A DNA stretch of 64,000 nt from the NCBI RefSeq assembly GCF_031456545.1, contig NZ_JAVDUV010000001.1, positions 1 through 64,000 on the forward strand. The letters run 5' to 3'. The position numbers were made by a program, and so were the translations under genes. Of the stretch, positions 3,798 through 37,070 are shown piece after piece; positions within the stretch are counted from its first letter, which is position 1; each line of letters begins with the position of its first letter. The notes under the pieces are model-generated. The model made no database searches. It was not told the origin of the DNA and saw only the letters and a list, made by a program, of their open reading frames with translations. Source of the DNA: Agromyces sp. 3263 (GTDB taxonomy: Bacteria; Actinomycetota; Actinomycetes; Actinomycetales; Microbacteriaceae).

Positions 3798-6220
<2,423 letters not shown>

Positions 6221-7432
6221 TCAGTGGCGCGCCGAGGTGACGGCGTCGAGCGCGCGGGAGAACTTGTCGGCGAACTCGTCGACCTCCGCGTCGCCGATGA
6301 TCAGGGGTGGGGCCATCCGGATGGTGGAGTCGTTCGCCGCGTTGACGATGAGGCCCGCTCGCATGGCCTCGGCGGTGAGCCTCGTGGCGACCGGCTCCGT
6401 GAGCGCGATGCCGATGAGGAGGCCCCGGCCACGGGTCCCGGCGATGAGCGGGGAGCCGAGCGACGCGATGCGCTCGTCGATCTGCCGGCCGCGCAGGGCC
6501 GCATTCTCGACGAGGCCGGCCCGCTCGATCTCGCCGAGGACGGCGTTCGAGACCGCGGTCGCGAGCGGGTTGCCGCCGAACGTCGAGCCGTGCTGCCCCT
6601 TGGAGTACAGCGACGACGCGTGGCCGAAGGTGACGAGGCCGCCGATCGGGAACCCGCCGCCGATGCCCTTCGCGACGGTGATCGCGTCGGGCGTGATGCC
6701 GGCGTGCTGGAACGCGAACCACTCGCCGGTACGGCCGGCGCCGGTCTGGATCTCGTCGACGATGAGCAGCGCGCCGTGTCGGTGCGTCAACTCGCGGGCG
6801 GCCACGAGGAATCCATCGGGCAGCTCGACGACGCCGGCCTCACCCTGGATGGGTTCGACGAAGAGCGCGGCGACCCCGTCGTCGAGCGACGTCTCGAGCG
6901 CCTCGATCGTGGCCGGGAGGTGCTCGACCCCGCCGGGCAGCGGCTCGAAGGCCTCGCGCATGTGCGCCTTGCCGGTGAGCGCGAGCGAGCCCATGGTGCG
7001 TCCGTGGAAGCCGTCGACGAGCGCCAGCACGCGGCTGCGGGCGCCGCCCGAGTTGTTCAGGCGCGCCAGCTTGAACGCGGCCTCGTTCGCCTCGGCGCCG
7101 GAGTTGCCGAACCAGGCGCGCCCCTGGTCGCCCGTGCCCGCCAGGCGGGTGATGCGCTCGGCGAGCTCGAGCGCGGGCTCCGTCGTGAAGTAGTTGGACA
7201 CGTGCGCGAGGCGGGCCGCCTGCGTCGAGACGGCCTCGACGAACACGGGGTGCGCATGCCCGAGCGAGTTCACCGCGATGCCCGCGAGGAAGTCGAGGTA
7301 CTCGTGCCCCGCGTCGTCCCACACCCGCGCACCACGGCCGTGATCGAGCTTCGCGAGCGGCATCCCGATCGAGCGCATCACGCGTCGGTCGAAGCGGCCC
7401 TGCCACTCGTTGAGGTCGTCGAGGGCCGTCAT
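6221..7432 (-). CDS. argD: acetylornithine aminotransferase
   Basis: PLP enzyme converting N-acetylglutamate semialdehyde to N-acetylornithine; it may also serve lysine synthesis as succinyl-DAP aminotransferase. 403 residues, class III aminotransferase fold, with the PLP lysine in [10 protein letters not shown] near residue 254, [12 protein letters not shown] before it, and [10 protein letters not shown] after. The ATG at 7432 overlaps the argB stop in an ATGA junction, which fixes the start and implies translational coupling. Confidence 0.96.
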
Positions 7433-8361
7433 GCGGGAACCACCTCCGTGCCGATGCCCGACTGGGTGAACACCTCGAGCAGGATCGAGTGCGGGATGCG
7501 CCCGTCGATGATCGCCGCCTTGGCGACGCCGCCCTCGACGGCTTCGAGGCACGCTGCCATCTTCGGGATCATCCCCGATTCGAGCTTCGGCAACAGGGCC
7601 GTGAGCTCGGGCACGTCGATCACCGACACGAGGGAGTCGCGATTGGGCCAGTCTCGGTAGAGGCCCGCGACATCGGTGAGGATCACGAGCTTGGCCGCAC
7701 CGAGCGCGACCGCGAGGGATGCGGCCGCCGAGTCGGCGTTCACGTTGAGCGACTGTCCGGGCGTGGCGCCGTCGGGCGCGATCGAGGAGACGACCGGGAT
7801 GCGGCCCGCGTCGAGCTGCGCGTGCACCGCGGCCGGATCGACGGCGACCACGTCGCCGACGAGTCCCAGGTCCACCTCGACCCCGTCGACCACGGCGCCC
7901 CGGCGACGACCCGTGAACAACCCGGCATCCTCGCCCGACAGCCCCGCAGCCAGCGGGCCGTGCTCGTTGATGAGCGACACCAGCTCGCGATTGACCTGAC
8001 CCGACAGCACCATGCGCACGACGTCCATCGTCTCGGGCGTCGTGACCCGGTAGCCGCCGCGGAACTCGCTCTCGATGCCGAGCCGACCGAGCATCGCCGA
8101 GATCTGGGGTCCGCCGCCGTGCACCACGACGGGCTTGATGCCGGCGTAGCGCAGGTAGACCATGTCCTCGGCGAACGCGCGCTGGAGCTCTGGGCTCACC
8201 ATCGCGTTGCCGCCGAACTTCACCACGATCGTCTCGCCGTGGAAGCGCTTCAGCCACGGCAGCGAGTCGATGAGCACCTGCGCCTTGTCGCCCGCCGTCG
8301 CCGTCCAGGCCGCGTCGCCCGCGGCATCCGCCTCGGTCGTCGTCGCGTTCTCGTCGCCCAT
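7429..8361 (-). CDS. argB: acetylglutamate kinase
   Basis: Phosphorylates N-acetylglutamate, usually the arginine-inhibited step. 310 residues, amino-acid kinase fold: VVKFGGNAM at the nucleotide site, VVHGGGPQI for substrate, and [12 protein letters not shown] with [11 protein letters not shown]. An N-terminal extension of about 25 residues (acidic, then [14 protein letters not shown]) precedes the kinase core; such an N-terminal helix is characteristic of arginine-sensitive hexameric kinases. It starts 2 bp after the argJ stop and overlaps argD by 4 bp. Confidence 0.96.
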
Positions 8362-8363
8362 GC

Positions 8364-9515
8364 TCAGCTCGCGTAGGCGCTGTTCTCATGCACGTAGTCG
8401 TGCGTGAGGTCGTTGGTGAGGATGGTGGCGGATGCCTCGCCGGCGTGCAGCTCGATGAGCACGTGCGTGGCACGCGGCGTGAGGTCGACCTGCTCGCGCG
8501 GCGCGTCGGGCCGACCCGCGTGGCACACCCGGACGCCGTTCATGGACACGTCGACGAGGTAGGGGTCGAACGGCGCCTTCGTCGTGCCGATCGCCGCGAG
8601 CACCCGCCCCCAGTTGGGATCGTTGCCGAAGATCGCCGCCTTGAAGAGGTTGTTCCGGGCCACCGACCGGCCCACCTCGACGGCGTCGTCCTCGGAGACC
8701 GCCCCGCGCACCTCGATGGCGATGTCGTGGCTGGCTCCCTCTGCGTCTTCCTGCAGCTGCTGCGCGAGCGAGCGGCACGCGTCGGTCACGGCTGCCGCGA
8801 ACGCGGTCGGGTCGGGCACGACGCCCGACGCGCCCGAGGCGAGGAGCGTCACCTGGTCGTTCGTGGACATGCAGCCGTCGGAGTCCAGCCGGTCGAAGGT
8901 CACCCGGGTGGCGGCACGCAGCGCGGTGTCGAGCGCGGCGGCCGCGACGTCGGCGTCGGTCGTCAGGACCACGAGCATCGTGGCGAGGCCCGGCGCGAGC
9001 ATGCCCGCGCCCTTCGCGATGCCGCCGACGCGCCATCCGTCGCCCTCGACCACCACGGTCTTCGGGCGCGTGTCGGTCGTCATGATGGCGCGCGCGGCGT
9101 CGGCGCCGCCGTCGGTCGAGAGCCGGTTGGCGGCCGACAGCACGCCCTCCTCCACGACCTCGCCGTCGAGCTGCTCGCCGATGAGACCCGTGGAGCACAC
9201 CAGCACGTCGCCGGAGGAGACGCGGAGGGCGCCGGCGGCGGCCTCGGCGGTGCCGTGGGTCACCTGGAATCCCTCGGCACCGGTGAAGCAGTTCGCCCCG
9301 CCCGAGTTGAGCACGATCGCGGCCACCCGTCCGTCGGCGATGGCCTGCTCCGACCACAGGATCGGATTCGCCTTCGCGCGGTTCGACGTGAACACCGCCG
9401 CCGCTGCGTTCGACGGCCCGCGGTTCACGATCAGCGCGAGGTCGAGCGCTCCCGAGCGCTTGATGCCGGCCGCGACACCCGCCGCCTCGAATCCCTCGGG
9501 GGCGGTGACGGTCAC
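8364..9515 (-). CDS. argJ: bifunctional ornithine acetyltransferase / N-acetylglutamate synthase
   Basis: Recycles the acetyl group from N-acetylornithine to glutamate. 383 residues; the precursor self-cleaves before the threonine of [14 protein letters not shown] (about residue 183) into alpha and beta chains. The GTG start at 9515 overlaps the argC stop codon as GTGA. Whether it also uses acetyl-CoA (bifunctional) cannot be read from sequence alone. No separate argA or argE is visible here, as expected for a cyclic pathway. Confidence 0.95.
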
Positions 9516-10555
9516 GGGGCGACTCCGTTCACGGGAAGGCCGGTGGACTCGGCGAGCCCCAGCGCGATGTTCGCCGACTGGATCGCGGCACCGGCGGTGC
9601 CCTTCACGAGGTTGTCGACGGCGGTCACGACGACGACGCGGCCTGCCGCCTCGTCGACGGCGAGCCCCATGAGCGCCGTGTTCGCGCCGAGCACGTCGGC
9701 GGTGCGCGGGAATTGGCCGGGCGGCAGGAGCTGCACGAAGCGCTCCCCTGCGTAGGCGTCCTCCCACGCCGCGCGGACGGCCGAGGCATCCGTGCCCGGG
9801 ACGATGCGGGCGGTCGACGTCGCCAGGATGCCGCGCGACATCGGCACGAGCACCGGCGTGAACGAGATGGTCGGAGATGCAGCACCCGCCCAGCGCAGCG
9901 ACTGCGAGATCTCGGGGATGTGGCGGTGGCCGCCGCCCACCGCGTAGGGGTTCGCCGAGCCGAGGAGCTCGCTGCCCAGCAGGTGCGCCTTGAGGCTCTT
10001 GCCGGCACCGGACGGGCCCACGGCGAGCACGGCGACGAGGTCCCGGTCCTCGATGACGCCCGCACGGATGCCGGGGGCGAGCGACAGGGCGACGGTCGAC
10101 GCATTGCACCCTGGGGCTGCGATGCGGCGGGCACCCGTGAGCCGGTCGCGCTGGGTGCCGGTCAGCCGGGGCAGCTCGGGCACGCCATAGGCCCACGCGC
10201 CGTGGTGCGCGCCGCCGTAGAACGCTGCCCAGTCGGCGGACGACTCGAGGCGGTGGTCGGCGCCGCAGTCGATGACGAGCGTCTCGGGCGACAACTGTGC
10301 CGCGACCGCTCCGGATGCTCCGTGCGGAAGCGCGAGGAAGACGACGTCGTGGCCGGCGAGCGTCTCGGCGTTCGTCTCCTGCAACGTGAGGTGCGTGTAG
10401 GTGCGAAGGTGCGGCTGCACGGCAACGAGCGGCTGGCCCGCATTGGCGTGCCCCGTGACGGTGCGCACCTCGAAGTCGGGATGGTCGGCGAGGAGGCGCA
10501 GGATCTCCCCTCCGGCATAGCCGGACGCGCCGGAAACGGCGACGGAGTACGTCAT
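9512..10555 (-). CDS. argC: N-acetyl-gamma-glutamyl-phosphate reductase
   Basis: NADPH-dependent reduction in arginine synthesis. About 347 residues: Rossmann motif GASGYAGGE at the N-terminus and the catalytic cysteine in APGCNAST near residue 145. I chose ATG at 10555, preceded by AAGGTGG; a GTG three codons upstream would bury the ribosome site. It is the first enzyme gene of the operon and follows the Arg-rich leader ORF by 63 bp. Confidence 0.95.
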
Positions 10556-10572
10556 GGATTCCACCTTAGGGT

Positions 10573-10633
10573 CTGTGCGGTCGGGGCGAGGGCCGGGCGA
10601 CGCCCCGCGACAGGCCGACTAGGCCGCGACAGG
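10573..10633 (-). promoter_or_regulatory. Candidate arg attenuator hairpin between leader peptide and argC
   Basis: After the leader stop codon the minus strand can fold CGGGGCG (10607-10601) with CGCCCCG (10588-10582) around a 12-nt loop. The stem can extend outward by CTGTCG with CGcACAG (10580-10573) across bulges. It ends a few nt before the argC ribosome site AAGGTGG. The 10-mer CCTGTCGCGG occurs twice, overlapping the last leader codons (10633-10624) and just after the stop (10614-10605), so alternative pairings are conceivable. There is no U-tract, so control could be at translation or by Rho. Confidence 0.45.
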
Positions 10634-10726
10634 GGTCGCCGAGATTCGGCGCTCGCCACGACGTCGGTTGCGCACGACCGGGACACGCGAGACGCGTGCG
10701 GCGGTGGCGAACCGGGTGGCGGACAT
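10619..10726 (-). CDS. arginine-rich leader peptide of the arg operon (candidate)
   Basis: A 35-codon ORF directly upstream of argC. Nine of 35 residues are arginine (codons 5, 11, 14, 19, 21, 22, 23, 26, 27), with the cluster RNRRRGERR at codons 19-27 using CGA and CGT, codons otherwise less used here. The ATG lies 7 nt after a -10 box, so the mRNA should be leaderless and begin with this ORF. A cis-acting sensor of charged tRNA-Arg is the simplest reading, by analogy with Trp, Leu and Ilv leaders of actinobacteria. It might instead be a fortuitous ORF in high-GC DNA. Confidence 0.6.
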   Translation of the reverse strand: MSATRFATAARVSRVPVVRNRRRGERRISATPVAA

Positions 10727-10733
10727 GTGAGCG

Positions 10734-10763
10734 ACCCTATCGTGCGACGGCAGGGGCGCGCAA
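10734..10763 (-). promoter_or_regulatory. arg operon promoter
   Basis: -35 TTGCGC (10763-10758), 18-bp spacer, -10 TAGGGT (10739-10734). The first base of the leader-peptide ATG is 8 nt downstream of the -10 box, at the expected transcription start. I see no convincing ArgR-type palindrome around it. Confidence 0.55.
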
Positions 10764-10792
10764 AACGCGCGGTGGAGTGACGCACGCGGCTC

Positions 10793-10837
10793 TTTACACG
10801 GCCGACCGGCGCCTGCTACGTTCCGGAAAGCGCTTTC
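10793..10837 (+). promoter_or_regulatory. pectate lyase promoter with LacI-family operator
   Basis: -35 TTTACA (10793-10798), 18-bp spacer, -10 TACGTT (10817-10822). Immediately after it lies GAAAGCGCTTTC (10826-10837), a perfect 12-bp palindrome of the type bound by LacI-family sugar repressors, covering the expected transcription start. This predicts repression relieved by a pectin breakdown sugar. A 7-bp hairpin GACGGAC/GTCCGTC follows in the 5' leader (10840-10859). No LacI gene is nearby, so the regulator acts in trans. Confidence 0.65.
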
Positions 10838-10888
10838 TCGACGGACGACGGCGTCCGTCGGCGCGGGACCGAAGGAGCTCCCCCGACC

Positions 10889-12196
10889 ATGCAACGACGA
10901 TGGATCACCGCGGGCGTCGCCACGCTCGGCGGTGTCGCCCTCCTGCTCACCTCAGCCGTGCCGGCGCATGCCGACCCCAGCCCGCGAACGGATGCCGCAC
11001 GCGAGACGCTCGCCGCGGGCGACGGCTGGGCCTCGGCGGGTGCCGGCACGACCGGGGGCTCGACCGCGACCCCCGAGCACGTGTTCACCGTCGACGACCG
11101 GGCCGGGCTCGTCGCCGCCGTCGCCGGCGACGAGCCGAAGATCGTGTACGTGTCGGGCGTCATCGACGCGAACACCGACGGCGCCGGGGCGCCCCTCACC
11201 TGCGCCGACTACGCGCGCGGCGGCTACACGCTCGACGCCTACCTCGCCGCGTACGATCCGGCGGTCTGGGGCTGGGACTCCGAGCCGTCGGGCCCCGTCG
11301 AGGCGGCACGGGCCGCATCGCAGGCCGCGCAGCGGGAGCGCATCGACATCCGCGTGGGCGCGAACACCACGCTCATCGGCCTGCCCGGCGCCGAGATCAC
11401 CGGCGCCGCCCTGCAGGTCGCGAACGTGTCCAATGTCGTCATCCGTGGCCTCACGCTCACGAACGCGTTCGACTGCTTCCCGTCCTGGGACCCGACCGAC
11501 GGCGAGACCGGCAACTGGAACTCCGAGTGGGACCTCCTCACCGTCACCGGCTCGACCAACGTGTGGATCGACCACAACGACCTCAGCGATGGCGGGGCAC
11601 TCGACTCCCTCCAGCCGTCGCACTTCGGCCGGCCGTTCCAGATCCACGACGGACTCCTCGACGTCGTGCGCGCCGCCGACCTCGTCACGATCTCGTGGAA
11701 CCGCTTCCACGACCACGACAAGGTCATGCTCATCGGCAACAGCGACAGCCGCACGACCGACCGCGGCCACCTGCGCGTCACCCTGCACCACAACGAGTTC
11801 CGCGACCTCGGCCAGCGGGCGCCCCGAGTGCGGTTCGGACAGGTCGACGCCTACAACAACCACTACGTGCAGTCGACGCACGACCAGTACCCGTTCGTCT
11901 ACTCGTGGGGACTCGGCATCGAGTCGAAGCTCGTGGCAGAGCAGAACGCCTTCACCGTGACGAAGGACTTCGACCCCGCCGCGATCATCGAGGTCTACAA
12001 GGGCACGGCGATCAGCGAATCGGGAAACGTCGTGAACCTGCGACCCGCCGACGTGCTCGGCGCCTACAACGAGTCGAACGGCACCGCGATCGCCGACGAC
12101 GCGGGCTGGACGCCCGAGTACCGCGGAAAGGTGCACCCCGCCGTCGCCGTGCCCGCACTCGTGAGCGTCTTCGCGGGGCCCCCCGGGCTCCGCTGA
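10889..12196 (+). CDS. secreted pectate lyase, polysaccharide lyase family 1
   Basis: Extracellular enzyme that cleaves polygalacturonate by beta-elimination. 435 residues with a Sec signal peptide (basic start, hydrophobic core, cleavage after AHA at residue 28). The parallel beta-helix core has the family motif NVWIDHNDLS and the catalytic arginine region RAPRVRFGQVDAYNNHY near residue 310. Ribosome site GAAGGAG 11 nt before the ATG. It lies between the arg and phe operons, where related genomes usually have none, so it is probably accessory DNA; it points to a plant- or soil-associated lifestyle. Confidence 0.9.
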   Translation: MQRRWITAGVATLGGVALLLTSAVPAHADPSPRTDAARETLAAGDGWASAGAGTTGGSTATPEHVFTVDDRAGLVAAVAGDEPKIVYVSGVIDANTDGAGAPLTCADYARGGYTLDAYLAAYDPAVWGWDSEPSGPVEAARAASQAAQRERIDIRVGANTTLIGLPGAEITGAALQVANVSNVVIRGLTLTNAFDCFPSWDPTDGETGNWNSEWDLLTVTGSTNVWIDHNDLSDGGALDSLQPSHFGRPFQIHDGLLDVVRAADLVTISWNRFHDHDKVMLIGNSDSRTTDRGHLRVTLHHNEFRDLGQRAPRVRFGQVDAYNNHYVQSTHDQYPFVYSWGLGIESKLVAEQNAFTVTKDFDPAAIIEVYKGTAISESGNVVNLRPADVLGAYNESNGTAIADDAGWTPEYRGKVHPAVAVPALVSVFAGPPGLR

Positions 12197-13310: not shown

Positions 13311-15836
13311 CTACTCCCGGAGCGTGGCCCCGACGCGTTCGGCGGCGAGCCCGGCGCCGGCGAGCTTCGCCTCGCTGGCCTCCGCCGCCGTGAGCGTGCG
13401 GTCGGCGGCGCGGAACCGCAGGGCGAAGGTCAGGCTCTTCGAGCCGTCGGCCACGCCCGAGCCGCGGTAGTCGTCGACCAGCTGCACGTGCTCGAGCAGC
13501 TCCCCGGCGCCCTCTCGCACTGCGGCAGCCACCGCTGCCGCCGGCACGTCGGCGGCCACGACGAGCGAGAGGTCCTGCGTCGCCGCGGGGTACGTGCCGA
13601 TCTGTCCGGCCTCGAGTCCGGGCTCGGTGAGCGCGATGACCGCGTCGAGGTCGAGCTCGGCGACCGCGACGACGCGCGGCAGATCGGCCGCTTCCGCCAC
13701 GGCGGGCAGCAGCTCGCCGGCGAAGCCGACCGTGCGGCCCCCGACACGGAGCTCGGCCGTGCGACCGGGATGCAGTGCCTGATGCGAGCCCTGCACGATC
13801 TCGATCTCGGCGCCGACGGCGAGGGCGATCTCTCGCACCGCGTCGAGCGCGTCGATGATGCCGGCGGGCACGGCGGTCACGCCCGGCTGCTTCGGGACGA
13901 CGTCGCCCACGACGAGCACGCCCACGTGACGGGGCTGCGGCGGGATGCCGGCCTGGAGGGTCTCGAGCTCGGCGTCGCTCGGACGCGCGTCCCCGAGCGG
14001 CAGCGCCGGTGAACCGTAGATGCGGCCGACCTCGGGCAGGAACACGGTGCCGAGCTCGAACAGGGACACGTCGACGAGTCCGCGAGAACGGTTGCGCTTC
14101 GCCGCCGCGATGAGCCCGGGAAGCAGCGACCGGCGCATGAGCGCGGTGCTCGCGTCGAGCGCGTTGGCGAGCTTCACGGATGCCACGGGCGAACCGCCGG
14201 CGCTGCCGAACCGCGCGTTCTCGGCCTCGGTGGCGAACGGGAACGACAGCACCTCGGTGGATCCGGCGGCCGCCAGCGTGTCGGCGACCCGGCGCCGGAT
14301 GCGCTGCGAACGGGTGAGGCCGCGTCCGGGCGGCGCGACCGGGAGCACCGACGGGATGCGGTGGTAACCGGCGAGCCGGGCCACCTCCTCCGCCAGTTCG
14401 GCGCGGCCCGTGAGGTCGGGGCGCCAGGACGGCGGCACGACCTCGAACCCGCCCTCGACACGGGTCACCGCGCCGCCCACCTCGGCGAGCGCGTCGTGCA
14501 CCTCATCGTCGGAGTACTCGACGCCGATGAGCCCCGAGACGTACCCGTCGGGCAGCAGGATCGCGCCGCGGGCCGGGGCCTCGTGGATGAGGGAACCACC
14601 TGCGTCGGCGGTTCCGCCGGCGAGGTCGGCCATGAGCTGCGCGACGCGGGACACCGCGGAGGCCGCGATCTCGGGGTCGACGCCGCGCTCGTAGCGCTTG
14701 GCCGCTTCACTCGGCAGCTTGTGGCGTCGTGCCGTGCGCGCGATGGACACCGGGTCCCAGTTCGCCGCCTCGATGAGCACGTTCCGCGTGGAGTCGTCCA
14801 TCTCGGTCTCGGCCCCGCCCATGACGCCGCCCAGCCCGATCGGGCCGCGGTCGTCGGTGACGACCAGGTCTTCGACGTGGAGCGTGCGCTCCTTGCCGTC
14901 GAGGGTGGTGAGCTTCTCGCCCGGCGTCGCGCGACGCACCACGATGCCGCCCCGGAGACGGTCGAGGTCGTACCCGTGGATGGGCTGCCCGAGCTCGAGC
15001 ATCACGTAGTTCGTGATATCGACGAGCACCGAGAGCGAGCGGATACCGGCGAGCTTCAGCCGCGCGACCATCCACGGCGGGGTGGGGCGAGTCGGATCCA
15101 CGCCGCGCACGATGCGCGTCGCGAACACGGCCGAGCCGACGCGGCCCCGGATGGGCGCCTCGTCGCGGATCTCAACGGGGAAGCCGTCGAGCGTGGCATC
15201 CACCGCCCCCGACTGCTCGACCGGGTCACGGAACGTCGCGCCCGTGGCGTGGGCGTACTCGCGCGCCACGCCACGGATGGAGAACGCGTAGCCGCGGTCG
15301 GGCGTGACGTTGATCTCGACCGCGGCGTCGTCGAGCCCGAGGAGCGCGATGGCGTCGGTGCCGACGGGCGCGTCGATGCCGAGCGTCGAGAGGCGAAGGA
15401 TGCCGTCGTGGTCCTCGCCGAGGCCGAGCTCACGCGCGGAGGCGATCATGCCGTCGGACACGTGCCCGTACGTCTTGCGCGCGGCGATCGGGAAGGGGCC
15501 GGGCAGCACCGCGCCGGGCAGGGTGACGACGACCTTGTCGCCGACGAAGAAGTTGCGTGCGCCGCAGACGATCCCGTGCACGGCGTCGCCGCCGTCGGCC
15601 GCGGCCTCGCCATCGGGCGCCACCCGAACCTGGCACCAGCGGATGGTCTTGCCGTTGGACTGCGGCTCCTCGACGAACTCGAGGACCTCGCCCACGACGA
15701 TCGGCCCCTGGAGCTCGAACGTATGCACGTCCTCCTCTTCGAGACCGACCCGCACGAGGGCGGCATGCACATCTTCAGGAGTCGTGCCCGGCACGAGTTC
15801 GACGTATTCGGCGAGCCAGCTGAGCGGCACTCGCAT
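13311..15836 (-). CDS. pheT: phenylalanine-tRNA ligase beta subunit
   Basis: 841-residue beta chain of the (alpha-beta)2 enzyme. Visible are the N-terminal OB-fold tRNA-binding domain (VVGEVLEF ... IVCGARNF), the B3/B4 editing domain (KRYERGVDPE), the B5 DNA-binding-like domain and the C-terminal ferredoxin-fold anticodon domain (TYPAATQDLSLVV). It begins 3 bp after pheS and ends at a strong terminator. Confidence 0.97.
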   Translation of the reverse strand: MRVPLSWLAEYVELVPGTTPEDVHAALVRVGLEEEDVHTFELQGPIVVGEVLEFVEEPQSNGKTIRWCQVRVAPDGEAAADGGDAVHGIVCGARNFFVGDKVVVTLPGAVLPGPFPIAARKTYGHVSDGMIASARELGLGEDHDGILRLSTLGIDAPVGTDAIALLGLDDAAVEINVTPDRGYAFSIRGVAREYAHATGATFRDPVEQSGAVDATLDGFPVEIRDEAPIRGRVGSAVFATRIVRGVDPTRPTPPWMVARLKLAGIRSLSVLVDITNYVMLELGQPIHGYDLDRLRGGIVVRRATPGEKLTTLDGKERTLHVEDLVVTDDRGPIGLGGVMGGAETEMDDSTRNVLIEAANWDPVSIARTARRHKLPSEAAKRYERGVDPEIAASAVSRVAQLMADLAGGTADAGGSLIHEAPARGAILLPDGYVSGLIGVEYSDDEVHDALAEVGGAVTRVEGGFEVVPPSWRPDLTGRAELAEEVARLAGYHRIPSVLPVAPPGRGLTRSQRIRRRVADTLAAAGSTEVLSFPFATEAENARFGSAGGSPVASVKLANALDASTALMRRSLLPGLIAAAKRNRSRGLVDVSLFELGTVFLPEVGRIYGSPALPLGDARPSDAELETLQAGIPPQPRHVGVLVVGDVVPKQPGVTAVPAGIIDALDAVREIALAVGAEIEIVQGSHQALHPGRTAELRVGGRTVGFAGELLPAVAEAADLPRVVAVAELDLDAVIALTEPGLEAGQIGTYPAATQDLSLVVAADVPAAAVAAAVREGAGELLEHVQLVDDYRGSGVADGSKSLTFALRFRAADRTLTAAEASEAKLAGAGLAAERVGATLRE

Positions 15837-36266: not shown

Positions 36267-36321
36267 TCGAACGAATGTTTGCCGCACCGACATCTGCCGG
36301 ATACAGTTTCGAATGTTCGAA
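36267..36321 (+). promoter_or_regulatory. lexA promoter with two LexA-like boxes
   Basis: -35 TTGCCG (36279-36284), 17 bp, -10 TACAGT (36302-36307). Box 1, TCGAACGAATGTTTGC (36267-36282), overlaps the -35; box 2, TTCGAATGTTCGAA (36308-36321), overlaps the start point. Box 1 fits the actinobacterial SOS pattern TCGAAC-N4-GTTCGA with three deviations in its right half; box 2 repeats exactly the 14-mer of the LysM promoter. Confidence 0.65.
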
Positions 36322-36380
36322 CACAGTCGATCAGACACCACCGACATCCGGCCGCGAGGTCGCAACGAGGGGCGGAGACG

Positions 36381-37070
36381 TTGAGCACCGACATCGACGG
36401 AACGCGCACGGCGGGCGGCCAACGCCGCCGCAAGAGCCTGAGCGCGAAGCAGGTCGCCATCCTCGAGGTCATCCAGCGTTCCGTGTCGAGCCGTGGATAT
36501 CCGCCGAGCATGCGCGAGATCGGCGACGCGGTGGGACTCTCCTCACTGTCGAGCGTGACGCATCAGCTCAACCAGCTCGAGCTCGCCGGATATCTTCGGC
36601 GCGACCCCAACCGTCCCCGAGCCCTCGAGGTGCTCATCGAGCTGCCCGGGGCACCCGGACGCAACGCCTCGGCGGGCGAGCCCGTGCAGGTGGGCGACGC
36701 CGCCATGGTTCCCCTGGTGGGGCGCATCGCCGCCGGCATCCCGATCACCGCCGAGCAGCAGATCGACGAGGTGTTCCCCCTCCCCCGTCAGCTCGTCGGC
36801 AAGGGCGACCTCTTCATCCTCAAGGTCGTCGGCGACTCCATGATCGATGCGGCGATCTGCGACGGCGACTGGGTCGTGGTGCGATCGCAGCGCACCGCGG
36901 AGAACGGCGAGATCGTGGCGGCCATGCTCGACGGCGAGGCGACCGTCAAGGTCTTCCGGCAGCGCGACGGCCACACGTGGCTGCTCCCCCGCAACACCGC
37001 GTTCGAGCCCATCCTCGGCGACCAGGCCGAGGTCCTCGGCAAGGTCGTCGCCGTGCTCCGCGCAGTCTGA
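36381..37070 (+). CDS. lexA: SOS repressor LexA
   Basis: 229-residue repressor of DNA-damage genes. N-terminal winged helix ([23 protein letters not shown]), autocleavage site Ala118-Gly119 in GRIAAGIP, catalytic Ser153 in [10 protein letters not shown] and Lys190 in EATVKVF. The start is most likely TTG at 36381, behind GGGGCGGAG; upstream frame is promoter. Cleavage is triggered by RecA, encoded at 47969-49036. Confidence 0.95.

Follow-up and report, generated by a model that had tools for sequence, protein, structure and literature searches.

A putative arginine-codon leader attenuator preceding the argCJBDFH operon of Agromyces and related Microbacteriaceae

Examination of a 64-kb window (the whole stretch of DNA that was analysed) of Agromyces, a soil bacterium of the Microbacteriaceae, located the operon argCJBDFH on the minus strand, with an ArgC that is 98% identical to ArgC of A. 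humi. The features identified for the operon and the region that precedes it are the following.

10758..10763, minus strand: -35 hexamer TTGCGC (genus consensus tttgc)
10734..10739, minus strand: -10 hexamer TAGGGT, 7 nt upstream of the leader ATG, a leaderless-type start
10619..10726, minus strand: leader ORF MSATRFATAARVSRVPVVRNRRRGERRISATPVAA, 35 codons with nine Arg, ATG at 10726 and TAG at 10619
10658..10666, minus strand: far Arg station, codons 21-23 (CGA CGT CGT), its first nucleotide 26 nt before the hairpin base
10646..10651, minus strand: near Arg station, codons 26-27 (CGC CGA), the last Arg codon starting 8 nt before the hairpin base
10596..10640, minus strand: conserved long hairpin, GGCGAC (10640-10635) predicted to pair with GTCGCC (10601-10596), with inner arms that co-vary between genera
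10570..10595, minus strand: C-rich, G-poor stretch from the hairpin to the argC ribosome site (from base counts in 40 representatives)
10561..10567, minus strand: argC Shine-Dalgarno AAGGTGG (from sequence)
9512..10555, minus strand: argC (PF01118, PF22698)
8364..9512, minus strand: argJ (PF01960; frame as scanned, start approximate)
7429..8361, minus strand: argB (PF00696, amino acid kinase family; named by its place in the operon)
6221..7432, minus strand: argD (PF00202, class-III aminotransferase; named by its place in the operon)
5231..6160, minus strand: argF (PF00185, PF02729)
3798..5258, minus strand: argH (PF00206, PF14698; longest frame, start approximate)

The promoter hexamers TTGCGC (10763-10758) and TAGGGT (10739-10734) are separated by a spacer of 18 nt, and the end of the leader ORF is followed after 63 nt by the ATG of argC (10555). 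An earlier sequence-only reading of this DNA had described such a promoter together with a 35-codon ORF containing nine Arg codons, and both were found at the position it had given them. It had counted five Arg codons within the segment RNRRRGERR, but this number was wrong, as the segment holds six of the nine. Further upstream, a gene of the pectate lyase family and one additional gene lie between pheT and argC (window positions 10889-12196 and 13311-15836); in some relatives (L061-L063) the end of pheT is situated directly before argC.

The argC upstream sequences of other genomes were screened with a filter requiring TAnnnT, a gap of 4-10 nt, an ATG or GTG start, 15-45 codons and at least four Arg codons in eight. 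This filter was passed by all 43 distinct Agromyces upstreams of 300 nt and by 66 of the 128 from other Microbacteriaceae, while the antisense control gave 0/43 and 7/128, respectively. Shuffled upstreams passed an earlier version of the filter in 0.5% of cases. At least six of the 62 filter-negative Microbacteriaceae upstreams still showed the element by pattern, and among other families of the order none of 20 upstreams passed, all 20 of these genomes possessing ArgR. The earlier observation is thus confirmed, exceeds chance and is not confined to the window.

Within the 64-kb window itself, two short ORFs on the two strands pass the filter for leaderless-type Arg clusters, the first being the argC leader. 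The second of these (36313; 36305-36383) precedes a lexA-like gene and lies over an SOS-box-like sequence, GAATGTTCGAACA (both identified by eye), and was taken as a chance occurrence. A second Arg leader was also sought before argG, and none was seen by eye upstream of this gene in five Agromyces loci. The Agromyces argG (L222-L225) lies at a distance from the operon, and its own start looks leaderless, with TAGGCT followed after 7 nt by ATG.

Several characteristics of the leader are consistent with its translation. Among 109 leaders, the gap between the -10 hexamer and the start codon was 6 nt (81 leaders) or 7 nt (26 leaders), with 4-10 nt having been allowed, a spacing in 107/109 that fits a leaderless transcript, its start being read from sequence. 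These leaders contain 5-11 Arg each, with a Lys fraction of 0.0. When the Agromyces sequences were aligned, 8/8 runs of gaps falling within the leader had a length divisible by three, and downstream of the leader 317/455 did not, runs common by descent being counted repeatedly in these figures. The non-Arg residues of the leader were found to drift, with the Arg codons beside the hairpin being kept; conserved Arg codons amid drifting surroundings, proposed earlier as a check, hold for Agromyces and for about half of the sampled remainder of the family. No synonymous bias was observed at the N-terminal codon positions. Searches with four leader peptides gave no Pfam match at E 1, the orf34/SpeFL family DUF2618 (PF10940) included, and eight leader peptides gave no match to NCBIfam.

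The choice of Arg codons beside the hairpin differs from that of the gene which follows. In the last 12 leader codons of 40 representatives, CGC was found 86 times, CGA 67, CGT 49, CGG 4 and AGA once (the leader frame being taken as that with most Arg codons, which is wrong for two of the 40 rows, L118 and L187), and argC of the same 40 had CGC 213, CGG 108, CGT 28, AGG 14, CGA 8 and AGA 4 (counted on partial genes, the first 200 nt for many rows). The share of CGU, CGC and CGA was accordingly 202/207 beside the hairpin versus 249/375 in argC (Fisher p 1e-21), and that of CGA alone 67/207 versus 8/375 (Fisher p 3e-25). Within the same stretch, CGG made up 4/206 of the CGN codons in frame versus 22/94 out of frame; across whole leaders it accounted for 87/898 Arg codons. 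CGU, CGC and CGA are read by one tRNA-Arg with inosine, tRNA-Arg(ICG). We know of no measurement of Arg isoacceptor charging in Microbacteriaceae.

The Arg codons also keep their distance to the hairpin. Counted upstream from the base of the hairpin, the first pair of consecutive Arg codons is 26, 29 or 32 nt away in 31/40 representatives. For the start of the last Arg codon this distance is 8 nt in 30 representatives and 5 nt in eight (38/40), the rows outside the latter rule being L118 and L187, those read in the wrong frame.

The conserved structure beside the Arg codons is, as judged by sequence comparison, the hairpin GGCGAC...GTCGCC with its co-varying arms. Its base, GGCG/CGCC, is almost invariant, and the inner arms differ between genera. 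Compared to shuffled sequences, the hairpin with its base gave z below -1 in 39/40 representatives (mean -3.34), its middle part alone in 29/40 (mean -1.53) and a control stretch in 8/40 (mean -0.14). The z values of the whole hairpin are biased in favour of the structure because its anchors were chosen by strand complementarity (nine were corrected by hand and that of L099 was set by hand), and a swap test is fairer. With the invariant ends removed, own inner arms were found to pair better than swapped ones (permutation z -8.4, 0/10000), a value to be read beside that of a comparison pair at -3.2, which gives the size of the effect of relatedness, for which the swap and z tests correct incompletely. 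The 74 loci compared had been chosen because the element was visible in them, and the 40 representatives were those under 80% alike. RNAalifold on the whole alignment gave just four pairs, all near-invariant; this is due to the inner arms varying in length, and the swap test was therefore used. The fold of the window RNA alone was unremarkable (z -1.0), so that the case for the hairpin rests on comparison. Searching the window with Rfam covariance models at the gathering threshold gave no match to a T-box or any other family, and seven loci searched at E up to 1 gave two weak, unrelated matches far below gathering.

Other structures were considered for a switch and were rejected. The sequence-only reading had proposed an inverted repeat, CGGGGCG/CGCCCCG, and a duplicated 10-mer, CCTGTCGCGG, around the stop codon. 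Both exist in the window (the repeat at 10607-10601 and 10588-10582), but among 45 distinct Agromyces upstreams the perfect 7-bp stem was found in just 12 and any duplicated 10-mer within the last 110 nt in six, four of which carry a local tandem repeat there; as a switch, this pair of elements was consequently discarded. The 3' arm of the conserved hairpin GGCGACCCC...GGGGCGTCGCC (10640-10596) overlaps the 5' arm of the repeat. A universal 1:2 hairpin within the Arg codons (CGCCGA...TCGGCG) is absent from leaders ending in ERR-stop (GAGCGACGATAG); the fold over the last Arg codons gave z -1.28, with 22/40 below -1, and its swap z of -2.6 is weaker than the -3.2 of the comparison pair. The 2:3 helix was strong in the folding and swap tests. 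A 3:4 helix of the classical attenuator type, ahead of the ribosome site, was rejected as a universal feature because it is weak, with a folding z of -0.30 (10/40 below -1) and a swap z of -3.7, barely beyond that of the comparison pair (leader versus ribosome-site region); by eye, this helix is clear in a few lineages only (L129, L130, L143). Base pairing between the C-rich stretch and the ribosome site was likewise rejected (swap z +1.5). In five Agromyces loci (L020, L022, L028, L044, L046), local duplications of the GACCTTTCAGGTCG type before argC were observed, which copy the region preceding the ribosome site and widen the gap between leader and argC.

Textbooks use the synthesis of arginine in bacteria as a standard example of control by a repressor, ArgR. 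The absence of argR from the operon, remarked on earlier from the window, was found to extend to the family, with the DNA-binding domain of ArgR (PF01316) matched in 0/249 Microbacteriaceae genomes and its C-terminal domain (PF02863) in 0/120. As search controls, PF01316 and PF02863 were matched in nine and eight, respectively, of 14 named genomes. Outside the Microbacteriaceae, PF01316 was identified in 138/139 genomes of the same order (following the grouping of the tool), the sole miss being a genome of 0.8 Mb. In those other families, the promoter region of argC often has at its -10 a TGTATAGTCATGC-like sequence (by eye), which we take to resemble an ARG box.

A model of the element (R1) gave matches at E 0.01 or better in 127/249 genomes of the family and 46/85 genera, partly by construction, as it was built from family members. 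When the first 62 matches were compared by eye with the positions of argC, all 55 that were comparable ended at the argC start codon, the other seven having no comparable argC entry. Later matches included a few that were second matches in one genome (E 3e-4 to 6e-3), situated away from the first. Across 19 Agromyces genomes, matches with E below 1e-4 were found only at argC, and the best match obtained from 11 genomes outside the family had E 0.006. In a tree built from 75 ArgC proteins (45 with the leader and 30 with none), the leader label requires six changes versus 23.7 for shuffled labels, four members that fail the promoter filter (L118, L119, L122, L124) having been labelled as leader by hand since the element is visible in them. 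Every large group includes sequences with the leader, as do both halves of the tree divided at the midpoint root. The simplest reading of this pattern is that of one early origin of the leader followed by several losses, a direction suggested by the tree with caution because many of its branches are weak. Cryobacterium and Leucobacter are lineages in which neither ArgR nor the element was found, and the element must therefore be dispensable.

Lineages with no leader, such as Cryobacterium and Agreia, have hexamers of the TAAGTT or TAGATT type approximately 6 nt before the argC ATG (by eye). At loci L061-L063, L065, L068 and L106, which have no leader, TAAGTT, TAGGTT or TAGATT stands 6-7 nt before this ATG, and argC looks itself leaderless there. 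Leucobacter loci L084, L089, L090 and L093 have in common the motif TGCCAGAATAGAG approximately 30-40 nt before argC, which is probably a different promoter. At L140, L156 and L196 (genera g26 and g57), no separate leader was identified by the filter upstream of argC, and the same hairpin base was seen by eye over the end of pheT; matches to R1 also lie over the end of pheT in genomes G063, G094 and G207. Either the tail of pheT has come to occupy the place of the leader, or it may be what the leader was derived from; both are possibilities only.

Regarding the step by which argC expression would be altered, no intrinsic terminator (hairpin with U-tract) was found in 10480-10900, and none was seen by eye in the upstream sequences of relatives. 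C exceeds G in 40/40 of the stretches between hairpin and Shine-Dalgarno (pooled C/G 2.7), with control stretches upstream of the promoter giving a pooled C/G of 1.0. The predicted cost of opening the ribosome site shifted by a mean of 0.8 kcal/mol between the hairpin-free and hairpin-blocked states of the 40 representatives, being higher with the hairpin base blocked in 21, lower in six and within 0.5 in 13. The sequence of the window is one of these six and goes the opposite way (predicted cost 6.6 to 5.0 kcal/mol).

An ORF of Arg codons and a conserved hairpin, in a family where ArgR was not found, together indicate that arginine is probably sensed by the speed of the ribosome on this ORF. 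The element is most probably a ribosome-mediated attenuator through which the supply of charged tRNA-Arg controls argCJBDFH, standing in for the missing ArgR, a reading to which we assign a probability of roughly 0.86. The earlier interpretation as a candidate attenuator is in this respect supported. The sensing of arginine through the leader is well supported by the sequence comparisons, which bear out the ORF, its codon choice, the fixed spacing, the hairpin and the absence of ArgR. Translation of the leader, the start of the transcript, the direction of the switch and an output that is either transcriptional (perhaps through Rho) or translational are what we infer from these.

In the proposed mechanism, transcription would start at the AUG of the leader itself and ribosomes would translate a short peptide, the conserved content of which is its Arg codons of the tRNA-Arg(ICG) class. 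When arginine is short, the ribosome would stall at the far Arg cluster, approximately 29 nt before the hairpin, leaving the base free, so that the GGCGAC...GTCGCC hairpin could form and argC would be expressed. When arginine is plentiful, the ribosome would reach the near Arg pair and the stop codon, where it would cover or unwind the base of the hairpin, and expression of argC would fall. The hairpin as the permissive form is slightly favoured, since ribosomes encounter the far cluster before the near pair and since blocking the base is predicted to raise, by a small amount, the cost of opening the ribosome site of argC. As to origin, it seems probable that ArgR was lost close to the base of the Microbacteriaceae and that the arginine operon was put under a leaderless Arg-codon attenuator of new layout, with two stations at fixed distances, one long hairpin, only codons of tRNA-Arg(ICG) at these stations and no terminator.

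The same sensor could also operate with the opposite sign, the hairpin being repressive, either by pausing or as a non-canonical terminator. With arginine in short supply, a ribosome waiting at the near Arg pair would then cover the 5' base and keep the hairpin open, and the near pair does lie 5-8 nt from the base, inside the ribosome footprint, with the hairpin being the only strongly conserved structure. Starved ribosomes should, however, halt first at the far cluster, leaving the base free, and no U-tract follows the hairpin; this arrangement is compatible with the sensing of arginine and is held to be possible, if somewhat less likely. An output dependent on Rho is compatible with it too, the C-rich, G-poor stretch being part of a Rho site, and the position of the ribosome and the hairpin setting whether enough free RNA is exposed. 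The excess of C over G in every representative and the lack of an intrinsic terminator among the sequences searched are in keeping with this, and Rho acting with an Arg-codon leader ORF is documented for Salmonella speF in the available portion of PMC6386406. However, the stretch is just approximately 25 nt long before an A/G-rich ribosome site is reached, and may equally be a ribosome standby site; the involvement of Rho is held to be possible, though less likely than not.

Further from the favoured attenuator is the idea that the Arg-rich ORF is untranslated and that its Arg codons are a by-product of a GC-rich RNA binding a protein or ligand directly. Conservation at the nucleotide level in the stretch just before the hairpin, the lack of synonymous bias in N-terminal codons and the modest 1:2 fold are what this would lead one to expect. 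The gap runs in threes and the constant distance from -10 to start are not, and neither is the occurrence of a stop or a sense codon at the same place with the Arg codons kept, nor the avoidance of CGG in frame but not out of frame, and such an RNA is thus very improbable. That the Arg codons are there by chance in a GC-rich genome, ahead of a plain leadered argC promoter, has in its favour that such codons are common in high-GC DNA and that some antisense controls pass the filter. The sense counts set against these controls, the rarity of passing shuffled upstreams and the fixed spacing to the hairpin make chance practically negligible as an explanation.

The earlier statement that no leader peptide was known for arginine synthesis in this family is in line with the literature matches listed and with a survey of RNA regulation in actinobacteria from 2005, according to the available portion of which arginine operons have no conserved upstream structure (PMC1262725). 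The main text of a 2010 survey of premature terminators contained no mention of arginine or argC in a term search (PMC2965389). Among the matches listed in the open-access literature the element is unreported, subscription papers being mostly outside this scope. Should the origin and layout proposed above hold, the element would be the first attenuator, within those matches, that governs an operon for arginine biosynthesis (argC...) through a leader peptide, and a transcriptional repressor would have been replaced across a bacterial family. A family with no ArgR found, and with the leader switch in about half of its sampled genomes, would be a natural case of regulatory logic being swapped. 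The leader also bears on how attenuation may proceed in GC-rich Actinobacteria with no U-tract terminators, and on whether selective isoacceptor charging sets the choice of regulatory codons outside E. coli.

Comparison to known systems, as described in the available portions of the cited papers, revealed both similarities and differences. The attenuators of trp and his and the ilvB leaders of Corynebacterium and Mycobacterium (PMC11857589, PMC13236596) share with the argC leader regulatory codons before their own biosynthetic operon and an RNA structure beside the leader stop. They possess a terminator hairpin, whereas at the argC leader neither a terminator nor a competing 3:4 hairpin that convinces was found; its ORF does carry the runs of end-product codons typical of the type, and it is not classed as a trp-type attenuator because of the missing terminator. 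The orf34-speF system of Salmonella (PMC6386406) likewise has a short leader ORF (34 codons) with a hairpin just downstream of its stop, and two consecutive Arg codons of orf34 sense arginine and choose between RNA structures. It controls ornithine decarboxylase (putrescine) and not arginine synthesis, and encodes a DUF2618 peptide behind a long 5' UTR, while the Agromyces leader is without a Pfam match.

The carA leader peptide of Pseudomonas aeruginosa (PMC4997734) precedes an operon that also feeds arginine (and pyrimidine) synthesis, but this operon is carAB and not the arg genes, pyrimidine control there being described as occurring by attenuation, with arginine acting on transcription. 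The rbfL of Staphylococcus aureus (PMC13009471) is, as proposed for the argC leader, a short ORF upstream of its target whose Arg codons serve to sense arginine. It differs in repressing a biofilm regulator at low arginine, in overlapping the next ribosome site and in its use of AGA/AGG codons. The theory of selective isoacceptor charging explains the codon bias of E. coli leaders (PMC1183508), on which it was tested, and the bias of the argC leader to one isoacceptor class is as this theory would expect. Within the Actinobacteria, the polycysteine ORFs of mycobacteria (Canestrari et al. 2020, via PMC9031893 and PMC13236596) are leaderless short ORFs, as the argC leader would be from its sequence, and are similar to it in carrying their regulatory codons in a row ahead of a biosynthetic operon, with attenuation by elongation speed, as is proposed here. 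They respond to cysteine and the Agromyces leader presumably to arginine, and full translation of the polycysteine type sequesters the downstream ribosome site (PMC13236596), with no clear sequestration seen in the argC leaders. The Agromyces leader additionally carries two Arg stations, the spacing of which is fixed, and its codons are followed directly by a conserved hairpin of considerable length.
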